The translations under genes were made by a program, and so were the position numbers. A stretch of 42,022 bases of DNA from Streptomycetaceae bacterium (GTDB lineage: Bacteria > Actinomycetota > Actinomycetes > Nanopelagicales > Nanopelagicaceae), in NCBI GenBank assembly GCA_007280125.1, contig QYPT01000078.1, positions 1 through 42,022 on the forward strand, read 5' to 3'. Below the pieces are notes generated by a model. The model saw only the letters and a program-made list of their open reading frames with translations. It ran no database searches and had not been told where the DNA came from. Positions within the stretch are counted from its first letter, which is position 1. The number at the start of each line of letters is the position of its first letter. This document shows, in pieces, positions 1,266-8,854 of this stretch.

Positions 1266-2401
1266 ATACGAATCGCGCAGAAGCAGTTGTAAACCTTTCA
1301 GCTATCGCCGCAAATGTTCGCACCATTAAAGCCCGAGCTGGTGTTCCAGTTATGGCAGTTGTAAAAGCCGATGCCTACGGTCATGGCTTATTGCCGGTTG
1401 CACGTACGGCAGTAGATGCGGGCGCACAGTGGCTCGGCGTTGCTTTACTTGAAGAAGCGTTATCAATTCGAGCCAGCGGAATTACAACACCAACGATTGC
1501 TTGGCTTGTTCCGCCAGGTTCAGATTTCGCCAGTGCTATTTCGGCTGACATTGATCTGGGGGTTGGGTCACTCGCAGTTTTTGCGCAAATAAGTGAAGTA
1601 GGAAGAAAGCTGGGTAGAAAAGCCCGCATTCATATCGAAGTTGATACAGGTATGACGCGCGGTGGGTTTCTTTCTGAATGGGAAAGCTTTCTCGAAGTCC
1701 TAGAAAAGGATTCGGAGAGCGTTGAAGTAATAGGAATATTTTCTCATTTCGCTCGGGCTGATGAGCCAGGCCAACCACAAAATGTTGTGCAACTTAAGCG
1801 TTTCACTGAAATGGCGGATGACTTAAATCGGATTGGAATTCAGCCCGAGATCCATCATCTTTCTAATTCAGCAGCAACACTGGTTGACGCCTCCTCACAT
1901 TTTGATTTAGTACGGGTTGGTATTGCAATGTATGGACTAACTCCCGATCTCGAAAATCTTGGAACTTCTCAATCACTTGGACTAATCCCGGCGATGACTC
2001 TCCGTGCAAAATTGAATGCTGTTAAGCCAGTATTAGAAGGAACGCCTGTCGGATATGGTGCGATTGCATTGACATCAATGGATACCACTGTCGGAGTTGT
2101 ATCCATGGGCTATGCAGATGGAATTCCCCGAATTGCTCAAGGTGCAGGCGTTTATGTGAATGGCCGCCGTTGCCCAATTATTGGCCGTGTTTCCATGGAT
2201 CAATTCGTTGTTGATTTGGGACCGGATACTTCGGCAGTGAGCGGAGATTGGGTCACGATTTTTGGACCTGGAACCGAGGGTGAGTACACGGCCGATGATT
2301 GGGGGCGAGCCAGTTTGAGTATTAACTACGAGATAGTCACACGAATTGGACCACGCGTGCCTAGAATCTACGAACCAACTACAACTATTGGAGTTTTGTG
2401 A
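1262..2401 (+). CDS. alr: Alanine racemase
   Basis: Pyridoxal-phosphate enzyme that converts L-alanine to D-alanine for peptidoglycan. The PLP lysine Lys35 lies in the signature [10 protein letters not shown] (33-42), and the second catalytic base is Tyr284 in [10 protein letters not shown]. The TIM-barrel half includes [12 protein letters not shown] and the HLSNSAAT segment, followed by the C-terminal beta domain with [12 protein letters not shown]. The 379-residue length is typical. The gene overlaps acpS by four bases (ATGA) and its stop overlaps the GTG start of the ABC ATPase gene by four bases (GTGA). This is notable because in mycobacteria alr is followed by the t6A genes, which here come only after 8868. 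Confidence 0.96.
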
Positions 2402-3162
2402 CCACGCCCTCAGCTCTCTTGGCTGTAGAGAATCTCCGCGTTGATTTCGGGGGCCTACGAGCCCTTAACGATGTTTTCTTGGAACTACGACACCAGGAAG
2501 TGGTTGGAGTAATTGGTCCCAATGGAGCGGGAAAGACGACACTCTTTAATGCCTTGTGCGGTCTAGTTGCTCCTTCCAAAGGTCAACTCACTCTTGATGG
2601 AAAAGCTCATGGTTGGCCAAGACCTCACGAACTAGTTGATTTCGGTATTGCTCGCACGTTACAAGGTGTCGGTTTATTCCCTGACTTAACTGTTGTTGAA
2701 AACGTAATGATCGGTGCTCAAAAGTTTGCACATACGGGCTTTATATCGGCGGCTTTTGGGCGCAGTAAAGACGAGAGCAAGTTGCGCGAACGCGCGATGC
2801 TAGCGCTGGAACGTGTCTACGCAACCGGTCTTGCAGAACGTCGTGCCGATACTTTGTCTTACCCTGATACAAAGCGCGTTGCTATCGCCCGTGCGCTTGT
2901 GAGCGAACCACGCATATTGATGTTGGATGAACCAGCAGGTGGTTTAGGCGCCGAAGATATTGCGTGGATGAATGGACTCATTCACAATCTGAAATTGCAA
3001 TGTTCAATTTTGCTTGTTGAACACCACATGGACGTCGTTATGTCAGTCTGTGATCGTTTATATGTTCTTAACTTCGGAGAAGTTATCTCCAGTGGCGCGG
3101 CTGAAGCAGTACGTCGCGATCCTGCAGTGATTGCTGCCTACCTGGGAGCCAACGCAACATGA
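2398..3162 (+). CDS. livG: Liv-type ABC transporter ATP-binding protein (LivG-like)
   Basis: Cytoplasmic ATPase of a branched-chain-amino-acid/amide-type importer. Walker A is GPNGAGKTT (40-48), Walker B is ILMLDEPAGGL, and the switch histidine lies in LLVEHHMD. The LivG-typical ARTLQGVGLFPDLTVVENVMIG region is present. The ABC signature is LSYPD (153-157) in place of the usual LSYGD/LSGGQ; a similar YP variant is known to me from actinobacterial LivG relatives, so I read the protein as functional. The GTG start is forced by the four-base overlap with alr, and the stop overlaps livF by four bases. The transported substrate cannot be read from the ATPase. The order G-F-H-M-binding protein is one operon. 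Confidence 0.9.
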   Translation: MTTPSALLAVENLRVDFGGLRALNDVFLELRHQEVVGVIGPNGAGKTTLFNALCGLVAPSKGQLTLDGKAHGWPRPHELVDFGIARTLQGVGLFPDLTVVENVMIGAQKFAHTGFISAAFGRSKDESKLRERAMLALERVYATGLAERRADTLSYPDTKRVAIARALVSEPRILMLDEPAGGLGAEDIAWMNGLIHNLKLQCSILLVEHHMDVVMSVCDRLYVLNFGEVISSGAAEAVRRDPAVIAAYLGANAT

Positions 3163-3869
3163 CACTTATTGTAAGCGACCTCTGCGTTGATCACGGAGCC
3201 ATCCGCGCCGTTGACCATGTATCCATGAAGATTGAGCAAGGCCAACTTGCTGCTGTTATTGGAGCTAATGGAGCGGGTAAAACAACTCTTCTTCGGGCGC
3301 TCTCTGGGCTGACTCCAACAACCAGCGGAACTGCGTCCTGGCAGGGTCATAACTTGCTTCACGCCAAGCCGGAGAAATTAGTTCGATTCGGAGTTTCTCA
3401 TGTGTCAGAAGGTAAATCTGTAATTCCAGAGTTATCAGTTGAAGAGAATCTCAACCTCGGTGCTCTCTGGCGCCGAAATGCCTCCGAAGCCAAAGAGACT
3501 CGTCAGAGAATTTTTGAGACATTTCCGCGGTTAGAGGAACGATCTACTCAATTAGCCGACACGCTTTCAGGTGGGGAAAGACAGATGCTTGCCATTGGAC
3601 GTGCGCTAATGGCAAAGCCACAACTCTTACTTCTGGATGAACCTTCCTTGGGTCTTGCGCCATTAGTTATCGCTCAAATCTTTCAGAGCATTCGTGATTT
3701 GACTACACGTATGGGATTAACCGTTGTACTTGTCGAACAGAATGCGATGAGTGCTCTTGAAATTGCAGATGTAGGAATCGTTCTTAATTTAGGACGTGTC
3801 GCCGCAACCAACTCCGCACAATCCCTCATAGCCGATCCGCAAGTACGTGCGGCCTACTTAGGTTATTAG
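3159..3869 (+). CDS. livF: Liv-type ABC transporter ATP-binding protein (LivF-like)
   Basis: Second ATPase of the Liv-type importer, pairing with the LivG-like protein. Walker A is GANGAGKTT (35-43), the ABC signature is canonical LSGGERQML, Walker B is LLLLDEPSLGLAP, and the switch position shows the LivF-type VEQN instead of histidine. SHVSEGKSVIPELSVEENL is the usual LivF Q-loop region. Length is 236 residues, normal for LivF. Because the partner ATPase has a degenerate signature, this subunit may carry the better-formed signature of the pair, which is inference. It overlaps livG by four bases, and livH follows after a GGAGG site. Confidence 0.93.
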   Translation: MTLIVSDLCVDHGAIRAVDHVSMKIEQGQLAAVIGANGAGKTTLLRALSGLTPTTSGTASWQGHNLLHAKPEKLVRFGVSHVSEGKSVIPELSVEENLNLGALWRRNASEAKETRQRIFETFPRLEERSTQLADTLSGGERQMLAIGRALMAKPQLLLLDEPSLGLAPLVIAQIFQSIRDLTTRMGLTVVLVEQNAMSALEIADVGIVLNLGRVAATNSAQSLIADPQVRAAYLGY

Positions 3870-3881
3870 GAGGCCATAGCG

Positions 3882-4787
3882 ATGTTTACATTCATAGACA
3901 CAGTTATTATCGGACTCACATCAGGTGCGGTCTATTCCTTGATGGCGATTTCACTAGTTCTAGTCTGGCGCAGTACGAGAGTAATCAATTTTGCTCAAGC
4001 AGGTCAGGCTCTACTTTCCACATATATCGGATACTCATTTATTGGACTTTTTGATTCATATTGGATTGCGCTATTTTTCGCAATTGTTCTGGGCGCTGGA
4101 GTTTCTGCACTCATTGAGATTCTCTTCATGCGTACACTTTTTAAGAGAAATACCGGGCCTATTGCTGGCGTCGCCCCAATCATCGCAACATTGGGACTTC
4201 TTGGATTGATACATGGGCTTATTGGGATATTTATGGGAGGGAAAGAGGCGATTATTCGCCCACCTGTTTCCAATGTTGGTTACACAATTTCTGGTCACAC
4301 ACTGGCTCTTTCGCCACTAAAGCTCGTGATCGTCTCGGCTGTACTTTTCTTGATGATCTCACTTTCATTTATTTTTACGAAAACAAATATTGGATTGGCC
4401 TTGCGCGCATCAGCATATTCACCTGAGATTGCACGATTAGCTGGCGTGAAAGTGGATGCAATAAGAACATTGGGTTGGGCACTTGCAGGAGCGGCAGGAG
4501 CAGCGGCAGGTATGTTGCAAACGCCAAACGGAACGGGAGCGCTTTCACCAGATTCTTTGGAGTTTAGTTTGCTGCTTGTCCTTGGCTTTATTGCAGCTGT
4601 AATCGGTGGCCTTGAAAGTCTCGTAGGTGCGGTAATCGGTGGGTTGCTTCTTGGACTAGTTCTGGCGTTTGTCATCATGTATGTAAGTGCGACTCTTCCA
4701 TTTATGACTGCTTTTCTTCTCTTACTAGGAGTCTTACTTGTGCGCCCTCAGGGAATTATGGGCAGGAAAGTAGGTCGTCGTGCATAA
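3882..4787 (+). CDS. livH: Liv-type ABC transporter permease (LivH-like)
   Basis: Inner-membrane permease of the branched-chain-amino-acid family, 301 residues with about eight hydrophobic segments. The N-terminal GLTSGAVYSLMAISLVLVW and VINFAQAG motifs, the FTKTNIGLALRASAYSPEIARLAGV coupling-helix region that docks on the ATPases, and the LEFSLLLVLGFIAAVIGG stretch with GLESLVGAVIGG are all family hallmarks. The ATG has a clear GGAGG at 3869-3873, eight bases upstream. The last eight bases overlap the next permease gene. Substrate specificity is not visible. Confidence 0.92.
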   Translation: MFTFIDTVIIGLTSGAVYSLMAISLVLVWRSTRVINFAQAGQALLSTYIGYSFIGLFDSYWIALFFAIVLGAGVSALIEILFMRTLFKRNTGPIAGVAPIIATLGLLGLIHGLIGIFMGGKEAIIRPPVSNVGYTISGHTLALSPLKLVIVSAVLFLMISLSFIFTKTNIGLALRASAYSPEIARLAGVKVDAIRTLGWALAGAAGAAAGMLQTPNGTGALSPDSLEFSLLLVLGFIAAVIGGLESLVGAVIGGLLLGLVLAFVIMYVSATLPFMTAFLLLLGVLLVRPQGIMGRKVGRRA

Positions 4788-5781
4788 ATTACTTCATTCA
4801 AATTTTGGGCGATTTGTTTTCTTTATTTTCCTGGGATTCATCATTTTCTTAGCCGGAAATCGCGTGGACGAGTTGCGTGTGTATCAAGGCGCGACACTTG
4901 CAATGTTCGTTGTTGCAATCTCATCAATAATTTTACTGACCGGATATTCGGGCCAAGTATCTCTGGGCCACGGCGCTTTGCTTGCAATCGGTGGATATTC
5001 GGCTGTGCTAGCTAGAAATTATTGGACTTTGCCAATATGGGTTTGCTTTGCCATCGCGGTACTTGTTGCAGCGGCAGCGGGAGCAGTACTAGGGACGGCA
5101 GCTGCGCGTTTATCGGGTCCATATTTGGCAGGAACCACTTTGGCTCTAGCGGTTGGCCTGCCCTCGATTGCTAATCAATTTTCATTCTTAGGTGGGGAGC
5201 AGGGTCTCCTTTTTGATGTAGGGGCACCCCCTATTTCTTTGGGGGCAGATTTCTCTCCCTATAAATGGTATTTCTGGATTGCCGCCTCGGCGGCGCTCAT
5301 CGCTCTGTGGTGGCTGCAAAATATTGTGCGATCGCGTTATGGACGTACATGGCGTGCGGTGCGTGGCAATGAGATTGCGGCGCAGCTAGCTGGAATTCAT
5401 AGCGGTAAGGCGAAAACGCTGGCTTTCACCGTCAGCTCGGGAGTTGCTGGCCTTGCAGGGGCCCTTTTGGCGATGACAATCGGGACCGTTTCCCCCAGCG
5501 CATTCCCGCTGACCTTGTCATTTTCTTTGCTTACAGGCGCGGTTCTGTCTGGCGTAACCACCCTGCCAGGCGTCATGATTGGCGCAGTGACACTGGTTGC
5601 CACGCCTGAGATTTCGCATGCGATATCCAATCGCCTTGGAAATTCAGAAGCGGTGACCACGAACTTACCTGGTCTATTGGTGAGTGCGTTACTGATTCTG
5701 GTGGTCATGCTCGTACCGAACGGACCAGTAGAACAGATGCGCAGTATGCGCGTTCGAAAGAACGCGTCCATATCGCGTTAA
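4780..5781 (+). CDS. livM: Liv-type ABC transporter permease (LivM-like)
   Basis: Second permease of the importer, 333 residues, with a GTG start inside the end of livH (eight-base overlap). Family marks are the VSLGHGALLAIGGYSA motif, the GPYLAGTTLALAVGLPSIANQ segment, and the cytoplasmic loop SRYGRTWRAVRGNEIAAQLAGI that contacts the ATPases. The GALLAMTIGTVSPSAFPLTLS and GAVLSGVTTLPGVMIGAV stretches follow. It ends in a short basic tail. A 47-base gap with a good ribosome site leads into the binding-protein gene, the usual point of raised expression for the periplasmic component. Confidence 0.91.
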   Translation: MHKLLHSNFGRFVFFIFLGFIIFLAGNRVDELRVYQGATLAMFVVAISSIILLTGYSGQVSLGHGALLAIGGYSAVLARNYWTLPIWVCFAIAVLVAAAAGAVLGTAAARLSGPYLAGTTLALAVGLPSIANQFSFLGGEQGLLFDVGAPPISLGADFSPYKWYFWIAASAALIALWWLQNIVRSRYGRTWRAVRGNEIAAQLAGIHSGKAKTLAFTVSSGVAGLAGALLAMTIGTVSPSAFPLTLSFSLLTGAVLSGVTTLPGVMIGAVTLVATPEISHAISNRLGNSEAVTTNLPGLLVSALLILVVMLVPNGPVEQMRSMRVRKNASISR

Positions 5782-5828
5782 CCACTTGTTAGTGATTAGG
5801 TCAACCACCCCTCGATGGAAGGAAATAC

Positions 5829-7136
5829 ATGATCGGAACATATCGCCGGAAGTTACTCGTAGCTTCTGCGGTGCTTGCAACTGGAAGCCTTGCTTTAACA
5901 GCGATTCCAGCCCAAGCCTTCTCAGTGCGCAATGAGATTGGAGTTACCTCCACCTCAATTAAATTAGGTATCACTCTGCCAATGACAGGTGCCGCATCTC
6001 CTGGTTACAACAAGATCCCAGGAGCCATGAAGGCCTATTTTGATTATGTCAATGCAAGCGGTGGGGTCAATGGTCGAAAGATCTCCTTGGTCGTAAAAGA
6101 CGACGCTTACACTCCTACTGCTTCAGTGCAGGCTACTAATGAATTAATTCTGAAGGATAAAGTCTTCGCAGTGGTTGGCGCGCTAGGAACAGCTAACAAC
6201 AAAGCTGTTGCTGCCCTCGTTAACCCAGGCCGTCGTGGAATTCCTGATCTTTTTGTAAACACAGGATTCAGTGGCTTCGCTGTGAAGAAATCTTATCCAA
6301 CTACATTCTCGCTCTTTCCTTCTTATGTAATGGAAGCGAAGATTTTGTCGATGTACATCAAGGATAAGTTCCCAGGAAAGAAATTGGCACTCCTGTATCA
6401 GGCTGATGACTTCGGTCGCGATGCACTTGCTGGTTTCAAAACTGGCGGATTAACTTTTGATACATACATTCCTTATGCACCACTTTCGCAAGCAACTCCT
6501 ACAGTTCCTCCAACATGGATTTCCAAGTTGCAAGCTGCTGGTTCCGAAGTGGTTGTTCTGTTTGGTGTATCTAGCGCAACAGCGGCAGCCCTTGGCGCCG
6601 CCTATGCGAAGTCATACAGGCCTCAATGGATTCTTGGATCTGTCGGCGGAGATGCAACAGCAATTAAACTTGCTGGTGTGCCTGCCCCACTCTTTACTGG
6701 AGTGCAAACAGCGTCCTTCCTTCCAGCACCTGCAGACGCCACAGATGAATATGTGAAGCTATTCCAGACCATTAATACTAAGTACAACCCTGGCGTAACT
6801 TTCGATAACAACATCTTGGCAGGAATGAACACCGCATTCGTTACAGTTCAAGCAATCGCTGCCGCAGGTAAGAATCTCACCCGCAAAGCTTTGATTGCCG
6901 CAATTGAAACTAAGGGTTCAACATTTGCAAGTGCAGGTCTCACTCCAATGGCGCCAACTGCAACCAGTCACGCTGGTTACAACGGGTACTGGTTTGGAAC
7001 TTATGATGGCACAGCAACGCTGAAGCCAAATGATGGTGTTTACACCGTTTACACAACCGACTCTGGAGCAGGCGCCGTGGTCAAGTCCACTTACAAGCGC
7101 CCAGCAATGCCAGCTAACGGATTGCCAACAAACTAA
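5829..7136 (+). CDS. Secreted substrate-binding protein of Liv-type ABC transporter
   Basis: A 435-residue type-I periplasmic-binding-fold protein (Peripla_BP_6/LivK-like). A signal peptide is obvious: basic start MIGTYRRK, hydrophobic core, and likely cleavage after AQA at residue 30; there is no lipobox cysteine. The mature protein begins with the family's GVTSTSIKLGITLPMTGAAS block and continues with the FDYVNASGGVNGRKISLVVKDDAYTP region, GALGTANNKAV and the YQADDFGRDALAGFK motif. AAGGA lies five bases before the ATG. Such proteins bind branched-chain amino acids, amides, urea or small aromatic or aliphatic acids; the ligand cannot be told from the sequence. The secreted hydrolase gene follows directly, so the ligand may be a hydrolysis product, which is inference. 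Confidence 0.88.
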   Translation: MIGTYRRKLLVASAVLATGSLALTAIPAQAFSVRNEIGVTSTSIKLGITLPMTGAASPGYNKIPGAMKAYFDYVNASGGVNGRKISLVVKDDAYTPTASVQATNELILKDKVFAVVGALGTANNKAVAALVNPGRRGIPDLFVNTGFSGFAVKKSYPTTFSLFPSYVMEAKILSMYIKDKFPGKKLALLYQADDFGRDALAGFKTGGLTFDTYIPYAPLSQATPTVPPTWISKLQAAGSEVVVLFGVSSATAAALGAAYAKSYRPQWILGSVGGDATAIKLAGVPAPLFTGVQTASFLPAPADATDEYVKLFQTINTKYNPGVTFDNNILAGMNTAFVTVQAIAAAGKNLTRKALIAAIETKGSTFASAGLTPMAPTATSHAGYNGYWFGTYDGTATLKPNDGVYTVYTTDSGAGAVVKSTYKRPAMPANGLPTN

Positions 7137-7150
7137 TGAGGACACTAACT

Positions 7151-8782
7151 ATGAAGAAGGCACGCGTACTTTCAATGCTTACTGCGACCGCATTGGTTTC
7201 AATGATGGTTGTTGCAATTCCTACAGCAGCACATGCTGCGGCTCCAGCTTGCGATGGCAAGTTGCCTGTCACTTCATGCGCCGGAAAAACTTCTGATGGC
7301 GCACCATACGCAATGATGGTTCCAGGAAACTTCAATGGCACCGTGTATCTCTATTCACATGGATACCGTCCAAACGTCAATGTTGTTGCAGGAATTCCTG
7401 GCTACGGTGGATATGTTGTTACCAACACTCCACAACCTGGACCAAACGCAACAATTATTGGCTATCTCCTTAGTCAAGGCTTCGCAGTTGTTGGTTCGGG
7501 TTTTGCTCGTCAGGGCTGGAATGCTGATTCAGGCGTTGCAACTGATGTCGAACTAATCGGCGAATTCAAGAAACAATTCCCAACGACAAAGCATGTTGTT
7601 GCATGGGGAGAATCTCTTGGTGGATTCATCACACAGGCACTTGCTGAAACTCACCCAGATCTCGTTGACGCTGTCGCACCAATGTGTATGGCTGCAGGAA
7701 CAGTAGAGGCCGAACTCACAATGGCTGGAGATTTCCTTTGGGGCGTAAAGACCCTCTTTGATCCATCAATTCAAGGAACCAACTATGCAGCTGGTGCTGC
7801 TGGTTATGTTCAAGAAATGACTGATCTTGGTAAGTTCTTTACAGTCCTTGGCAAACTTCAAGCCGGTGTAAGCACTGGCGTTTGGCCAGATACATCGAGT
7901 GCAACAGGCTTAGCGTTGCAGAAGGCTGGAATTCCAGTTCGCAGCGCCCTCTTGATGCTTGGTTTGATGTCAGGTATTGGCACACAAAGTGCTCACTTTG
8001 ATTCAATCTCAGGTCCAGCTGGCGCGTTGAAGTTGGCATTCCCATTAGCAGTAAGTCCAGCACTTGCTGTTCTTGAAAATGGAGCCAACGCTGGTGCACT
8101 CGCAATCTTGGCAACTCAAGATGTCGAGCAACAATCTGGCGGAGTTATCTTTGATAACACCAAGACTGATTATGCCGCGCGTATCGCAACTGAAGGAGTT
8201 ATTTTCAATGTCGCACTTAGTGGCGACGAAGGAATCGCGGGAATGCTTCAAGCGCTGAGCCCACTCAATCCAGGTGCTCCACGAGTAACTGGAAACCCAG
8301 AGGCAATTGCAAAGATGCGCGCATTGCTATCCCACACAGGAAAAATCAATGTCCCAACAATCACAATGACGGGCGTTGCAGATCCAATTACACCAGCAGG
8401 TGGACCACAGTGGTTGGCAGATAAATATGCTGCTCAATATGCTGCAGAGAAAGCAGCAGCATCTGCTGCTTTCAAAACAACTGGTGCATATGTCCCTCCA
8501 GTCAAGAAGTTGTTATCAATCTGGGTTACAACCCCAGCTGCGTACACAACCTTCACTGCTGCGGGCCTACCAGTTACCTCAACACCACCAGCACCAGGAA
8601 CCAATCACTGCGTCTTCACAACTGCTCAATATCAGGTAGTTGCGAAACAACTCGCTTCGGTTGCTTCAACTGGACTGATGATTACAGGTGGACCACTTAG
8701 GACTCTTATCCGCAAGGGCAAGAACTTGAGTATCGATCCTATGTACCGTGCTCCATTGTTGAAGTTCTACAACGAGCAGTAA
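7151..8782 (+). CDS. Secreted alpha/beta hydrolase (esterase-like), linked to Liv-type transporter
   Basis: A 543-residue exported protein with a signal peptide ending near AHA at residues 27-29. The alpha/beta-hydrolase pieces are readable: oxyanion strand LYSHG (67-71), nucleophile elbow GESLGG with Ser155, acid Asp411 in GVADPITPAGG, and base His486 in GTNHCVF, so the triad looks intact. A cap or insert of about 200 residues lies between the nucleophile and the acid. I place the start at ATG 7151, with GAGGA at 7138-7142, and not at the in-frame ATG 7136 that overlaps the previous stop. Context suggests it releases a product taken up by the adjacent ABC system. Ester, lactone, amide or polyhydroxyalkanoate-oligomer substrates are all possible; I do not recognise a specific family. 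Confidence 0.8.
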   Translation: MKKARVLSMLTATALVSMMVVAIPTAAHAAAPACDGKLPVTSCAGKTSDGAPYAMMVPGNFNGTVYLYSHGYRPNVNVVAGIPGYGGYVVTNTPQPGPNATIIGYLLSQGFAVVGSGFARQGWNADSGVATDVELIGEFKKQFPTTKHVVAWGESLGGFITQALAETHPDLVDAVAPMCMAAGTVEAELTMAGDFLWGVKTLFDPSIQGTNYAAGAAGYVQEMTDLGKFFTVLGKLQAGVSTGVWPDTSSATGLALQKAGIPVRSALLMLGLMSGIGTQSAHFDSISGPAGALKLAFPLAVSPALAVLENGANAGALAILATQDVEQQSGGVIFDNTKTDYAARIATEGVIFNVALSGDEGIAGMLQALSPLNPGAPRVTGNPEAIAKMRALLSHTGKINVPTITMTGVADPITPAGGPQWLADKYAAQYAAEKAAASAAFKTTGAYVPPVKKLLSIWVTTPAAYTTFTAAGLPVTSTPPAPGTNHCVFTTAQYQVVAKQLASVASTGLMITGGPLRTLIRKGKNLSIDPMYRAPLLKFYNEQ

Positions 8783-8791
8783 ATCTCAATG

Positions 8792-8831
8792 AAATACGGG
8801 GGCTTCGAGAAATCGAGGCCCCCGTATTTTT
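8792..8831 (+). terminator. Strong Rho-independent terminator after the Liv/hydrolase operon
   Basis: Seventeen-base stem (8792-8808 with 8813-8829) holding one G-U pair, a GAAA tetraloop and a run of T to 8831. It closes the alr-liv-hydrolase transcription unit and separates it from the t6A operon. Confidence 0.92.
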
Positions 8832-8854
8832 ATGCCTTTAGAGTGACTATCAAC

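Follow-up and report, generated by a model that had tools for sequence, protein, structure and literature searches.

Which compound does a Liv-type transporter import when its genes are followed by the gene of a predicted secreted hydrolase, and do the two act together? The question arises from a draft genome of 1.86 Mb, and in particular from its contig C127. Named relatives, such as Candidatus Planktophila and records of Nanopelagicaceae, place the genome among the freshwater acI actinobacteria (order Nanopelagicales). The whole stretch of DNA analysed, 42,022 nucleotides long, is denominated here the window. The available parts of two papers on acI bacteria name a branched-chain transporter, and make no mention of a hydrolase (PMC5574706, PMC5301498). 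The reading favoured here, to which a probability of about 0.55 is assigned, is that the genes encode a dedicated system for extracellular hydrolysis and uptake, which would import an acid derived from an ester.

Organization of the cassette

Six genes, all on the forward (+) strand, form a cassette at window positions 2398-8782, flanked by alr and tsaE. The order is LivG-LivF-LivH-LivM-SBP-hydrolase. The first two genes encode ATPases of the LivG type (2398..3162; Pfam ABC_tran 9e-28, BCA_ABC_TP_C 6e-9) and of the LivF type (3159..3869; ABC_tran 4e-32), the third and the fourth permeases of the LivH type (3882..4787; BPD_transp_2 4e-30) and of the LivM type (4780..5781; BPD_transp_2 2e-33). 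They are followed by genes for a substrate-binding protein (SBP) of 435 aa (5829..7136; Peripla_BP_6, E 7e-41) and for an alpha/beta serine hydrolase of 548 aa, predicted to be secreted (7136..8782; Hydrolase_4, E 7e-7). HAAT (Liv-type) ABC importers are recognised by an operon that combines a pair of ABC ATPases and a pair of BPD_transp_2 permeases with a Peripla_BP_6 SBP. All these components are found contiguously at 2398-7136, and all Pfam matches are above the curated cut-off. The five-component layout, the Peripla_BP_6 SBP and the BPD_transp_2 permeases are those of E. coli LivJ/LivK-LivHMGF; in comparison with the latter, the cassette has in addition a predicted exported hydrolase as obligate sixth gene.

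A sequence-only reading of this DNA had paired the SBP and the hydrolase, and had given them signal peptides and a shared terminator. The two genes are contiguous, the stop codon of the former and the start codon of the latter overlapping as TAATG. The extent of the unit had to be revised, as the four upstream Liv genes (2398-5781) had been missed, and the start is at LivG (2398). Sec-type signal peptides with the cleavage motifs AQA and AHA were read by eye on SBP and hydrolase, respectively. No lipobox Cys was seen by eye in either signal peptide; the organism is Gram-positive. The intrinsic terminator is located at 8791..8833 on the + strand, and features a stem perfect over 18 pairs, a 4-base loop and a U run. 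It folds at -32.2 kcal/mol (z -6.2), and 0 of 200 shuffles were equally stable. The hairpin was revealed by folding; a consensus scan for promoters and terminators, in which counts were near or below those of shuffles, did not list the 8791-8833 element.

Linkage in Nanopelagicales

The hydrolase is encoded in 240 of 296 Nanopelagicales genomes, and in 101 of the 108 of high quality; the six genes of the unit keep a constant order. Wherever the DNA upstream of a non-redundant hydrolase gene is long enough, the SBP gene directly precedes it (96/96), and the TAATG overlap is kept in 65 of these 96 loci. Among 29 genomes checked, the SBP was seen without the hydrolase only in those where the contig breaks off at the side of the SBP that faces the hydrolase. 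In most members gene order is conserved along acpS-alr-...-groEL. Long insertions split the hydrolase from tsaE in 8 loci, and the SBP-hydrolase junction in none. The proposal, made from the sequence, that the hydrolase feeds its own ABC importer had been staked on a linkage of the two genes in other genomes. The search for conserved neighbourhoods revealed that the linkage is order-wide, and the proposal gains support both from this and from the inheritance and exchange of the six genes as a unit, described below.

The site 3' of the hydrolase resembles an insertion hotspot (8 loci). Two of the loci with long hydrolase-tsaE insertions (L112, 14763-18129; L132, 9898-13258) also hold a second Liv-type transporter.

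Both proteins have relatives beyond the order. Distant hydrolases, locally 24-38% identical (best E 3e-22), were analysed at 11 loci, and in none was a homologue of the cassette SBP or permeases found in the neighbourhood. SBP relatives, also monitored at 11 loci, mostly adjoin Liv genes, and no homologue of the cassette hydrolase was found there at E 0.01.

A second cassette in the same assembly (G000:C59:1-7140, locus L004) was considered as a paralogue, and rejected. The copy spans LivG to tsaB, and thus duplicates tsaE and tsaB too; its hydrolase is 68% identical. It is collinear with a genome carrying another genus code (G219), at 84% DNA identity over the full 7.1 kb. Because of the duplicated tsaE and tsaB and of this collinearity, the contig is most likely mis-binned.

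Two versions exchanged en bloc

The cassette comes in two deep versions, called A and B; the window carries version A. In pairs of genomes of the same genus that differ in version, identity falls to 35-57% within the cassette, and the flanks are 66-100% identical, the short rimI being an exception; the range given for the flanking genes acpS, alr, tsaE, tsaB, tsaD, groES and groEL is 63-100%. Cassettes of pairs from different genera that share a version are 51-74% identical. When the A/B label is mapped on gene trees of 50 genomes, a single change suffices in each of LivG, LivF, LivH, LivM, the SBP and the hydrolase; acpS, alr, tsaE, tsaB, tsaD, groES and groEL need 6-9 changes apiece. The label was assigned from the LivM score, and it is the concordance of the five remaining cassette genes that is informative. 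The tree of the concatenated flanks needs 6 A/B changes, at least 5 of which are forced by supported branches, and the grouping of B genomes in one clade is rejected on flank genes (AU p 6e-10).

As read from these trees, one version has taken the place of the other, as a block, on at least five occasions. The edges of the block are exact, one between alr and LivG and the other between hydrolase and tsaE, and the hydrolase lies inside. Because all six genes split versions once, and the flanks 6-9 times, the hydrolase is assigned to the transporter. The block exchange is the strongest evidence for one common function of hydrolase and transporter, and makes it very likely that the unit is one feeding system.

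Operon and history may be common and the substrate not, the hydrolase detoxifying an ester or a lactone, or serving envelope or lipid turnover. Conserved operons can unite proteins that have no common substrate, operon membership alone being no proof of one, and this counts against the uptake model. In favour of separate substrates, both families occur apart in the genomes sampled beyond the order. In Nanopelagicales, however, the hydrolase is always found with the transporter and is co-exchanged with it within exact block edges, whereas the neighbouring tsaE is not, and a hydrolase working on its own substrate is considered unlikely.

The binding protein

The AF2 model of the SBP has a pLDDT of 93. 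Among solved structures, 4n03 and 3lop come closest (Z 41.1 each), nearly tied with the valine-bound 3lkb (40.5). 4n03, from Thermomonospora curvata, is the top Foldseek match and a joint top VIA match, and is titled as the SBP of a fatty acid ABC transporter. Sequence identity of the SBP to solved structures amounts to only about 20%.

In LivJ the carboxylate of the ligand is contacted by S79 and T102, and the ammonium group by E226 (PMC13103812). Positions 79 and 102 are Thr and Ser in cassette SBPs of both versions, position 202 is occupied by Val or Thr throughout those compared, and position 226 is Val in all compared version A and B SBPs, in all three alignments; residues 100-102 were aligned differently from one run to another, and are less reliable than the 226 column. 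In comparison with E. coli LivJ, the carboxylate-side hydroxyls are thus kept, as Thr/Ser, but the acid at 226 and Tyr202 are lost (Glu226 to Val, Tyr202 to Val or Thr), and the LivJ-type specificity set is broken. Since Val replaces Glu226 while the carboxylate hydroxyls are kept, a carboxylate that lacks an alpha-amino group is the probable ligand. The assignment is tentative, because of the identity of about 20%, the shifting 100-102 alignment and the tie of 3lkb in Z. 4n03 is also non-acidic at LivJ position 226, having Asn where the cassette SBP has Val; the two are only 22-23% identical, and the likeness comes from the alignment, not from superposed pocket side chains.

A second Peripla_BP_6 SBP, with its best score to LivJ, LivK or a leucine-bound SBP, was found in the majority of the complete genomes examined. 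Asp226, Tyr202, Ser79 and Thr or Ser102 are kept in 7 of the 9 full-length cases (6 genomes). By these residues, the second, LivJ-like SBP appears the better candidate for branched-chain amino acids, and the branched-chain label is probably wrong for the cassette.

In a rival reading the cassette is a true importer of branched-chain amino acids, and the hydrolase a secreted S33-like aminopeptidase, or an amino-acid ester or amide hydrolase, releasing Leu, Ile or Val. The best Pfam family of the hydrolase is indeed Hydrolase_4 (Serine aminopeptidase, S33), the valine-bound 3lkb is tied in structure score and, according to the available parts of the acI papers, the acI transporters are annotated as branched-chain and acI cells import leucine (PMC5574706, PMC5301498). 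Yet in all family members compared the alpha-ammonium anchor Glu226 is replaced by Val, and Tyr202 by Val or Thr, and most of the same genomes encode a second SBP in which the LivJ-like set is complete. A true branched-chain importer seems, too, an unlikely explanation.

As to signal peptides, the lipobox Cys is also missing from several second SBPs of the compared genomes. The signal peptide of version A SBPs (window 5829-5930) carries a conserved, Tat-like RRKL motif (Asn-Arg-Arg-Lys-Leu in many relatives), which is missing from version B SBPs and from some version A clades.

The hydrolase

The hydrolase features a G-E-S-L-G nucleophile elbow and a predicted Ser160-Asp416-His491 triad, numbered from the ATG at 7136. 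The sequence-only reading had noted an intact-looking triad at 155, 411 and 486, numbers that count from an internal start, ATG 7151, which has a GAGGA-like ribosome site. The residues hold in the homologues of both versions, being invariant in 35 version A and 15 version B proteins; one divergent version A hydrolase has Glu in place of the triad Asp. The core of the AF2 model (pLDDT 93) matches solved alpha/beta hydrolases with Z about 20 over 215-265 residues. Triad, nucleophile elbow and fold, as seen in model and sequence, place the protein in the alpha/beta hydrolase superfamily. The cap had been estimated at about 200 residues, and measures about 190 (mature 157-345). The region is mostly made of helices, is modelled with pLDDT about 92, and includes a motif around Asp340-Asn341 kept in both versions. 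The cap found no match in PDB searches made with the full-length model, and the sequence search of solved structures with the hydrolase yielded nothing significant.

The enzyme had been held unassignable to a characterised family. It is divergent, but weak kinship to both tannase-like and S33 proteins was found. The Hydrolase_4/S33 (PF12146) cut-off is passed (29.2 bits vs 27) over residues 125-184 alone, which correspond to the nucleophile region, and the match is no evidence of peptidase activity. DUF6351 (PF19878), a tannase-like family, matches the window hydrolase solely around the nucleophile, at E 0.04 and under the curated cut-off; it also matches some relatives, down to E 4e-5 in a distant standalone one. 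Tannases, feruloyl esterases and MHETase (PF07519; 3wmt, 6qg9) have in common with the hydrolase the alpha/beta core, the Ser-Asp-His triad and a large helical lid. PF07519, however, has no match in the window hydrolase at E 0.1, or in 35 homologues at E 0.01, and at TM about 0.3 the lid either differs or sits differently. Enzymes of the tannase family have a disulfide connecting a Cys before the catalytic Ser to a Cys after the catalytic His (PMC6461665). The first is missing in the cassette hydrolase, the residue before Ser160 being Glu. The second, directly after His491, is found in most version A hydrolases, as in the tannase family, and in clearly aligned rows is kept or lost together with Cys184; both Cys184 and the post-His Cys are missing from version B. 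This suggests that in version A proteins a disulfide may connect Cys184 to the Cys following His491. On the whole, sequence and model describe the hydrolase as a divergent enzyme, tannase-like or S33-like, whose cap is helical.

In two genomes of the genus g14 (L198, L197) the C-terminal half of the version B hydrolase is extended, between the catalytic Asp and the catalytic His, by an insert rich in Ala and Lys and a few dozen residues long.

The acid imported could be specifically aromatic, a feruloyl-esterase-like enzyme being combined with an SBP for aromatic acids. Two members of the tannase family, feruloyl esterase B and MHETase, occupy the first Foldseek ranks for the hydrolase, and the structural matches of the cassette SBP include Liv-type SBPs with coumarate, caffeate or hydroxybenzoate as ligand. 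The hydrolase matches, on the other hand, have TM-scores of only about 0.3 and an rmsd of nearly 15 A, the Cys-Ser pair of tannases is missing, and many SBPs of the same fold have similar scores, so that restriction to aromatic acids looks quite improbable.

Proposed function

In the uptake system favoured here, the exported hydrolase would cut an ester outside the membrane, an amide or a lactone being less likely. The reaction would free a carboxylic acid without alpha-amino group, plausibly a fatty, hydroxy, keto or aromatic acid. The SBP would hold the acid by the hydroxyls of the Thr and Ser residues found in place of LivJ Ser79 and Thr102, and LivHMGF would import the SBP-bound acid. It counts against the model that neither exported protein has a lipid anchor that may explain how the product is retained. 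Acyl-CoA dehydrogenase was considered as evidence for fatty acids and discarded: it was found in 12 of the 12 genomes searched, but is used in branched-chain catabolism as well.

That the pairing is a relic of frozen gene order in small streamlined genomes, as the synteny of acpS-alr-...-groEL in most members might suggest, is a very improbable and already disfavoured explanation, given that 8 loci break hydrolase-tsaE and 0 SBP-hydrolase, and that the exchange edges at alr/LivG and hydrolase/tsaE are sharp, which passive synteny would not predict.

By a more tentative extension, held at slightly less than even odds, a core acI importer would take up a carboxylic acid from an external ester, and not branched-chain amino acids, and the two versions would compete for one site, perhaps with different substrates. 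If the cassette imports another class of compounds, a core part of the acI nutrient picture changes; the two versions at one locus would then also serve as a clean natural experiment on how a niche changes when an entire uptake system is replaced.

Relation to known systems

Transporters of the Liv type and secreted hydrolases of alpha/beta fold are both known. A description of the cassette was not found in the open-licence papers searched, and what seems new is a HAAT importer putatively coupled to a hydrolase, order-wide and exchanged as a block. An actinobacterial precedent for the putative logic of the cassette is offered, by analogy and with no homology implied, by the PatDABC phthalate importer of Rhodococcus jostii RHA1, part of a dispersed catabolic system, which imports acids or monoesters resulting from ester hydrolysis (PMC10973024).
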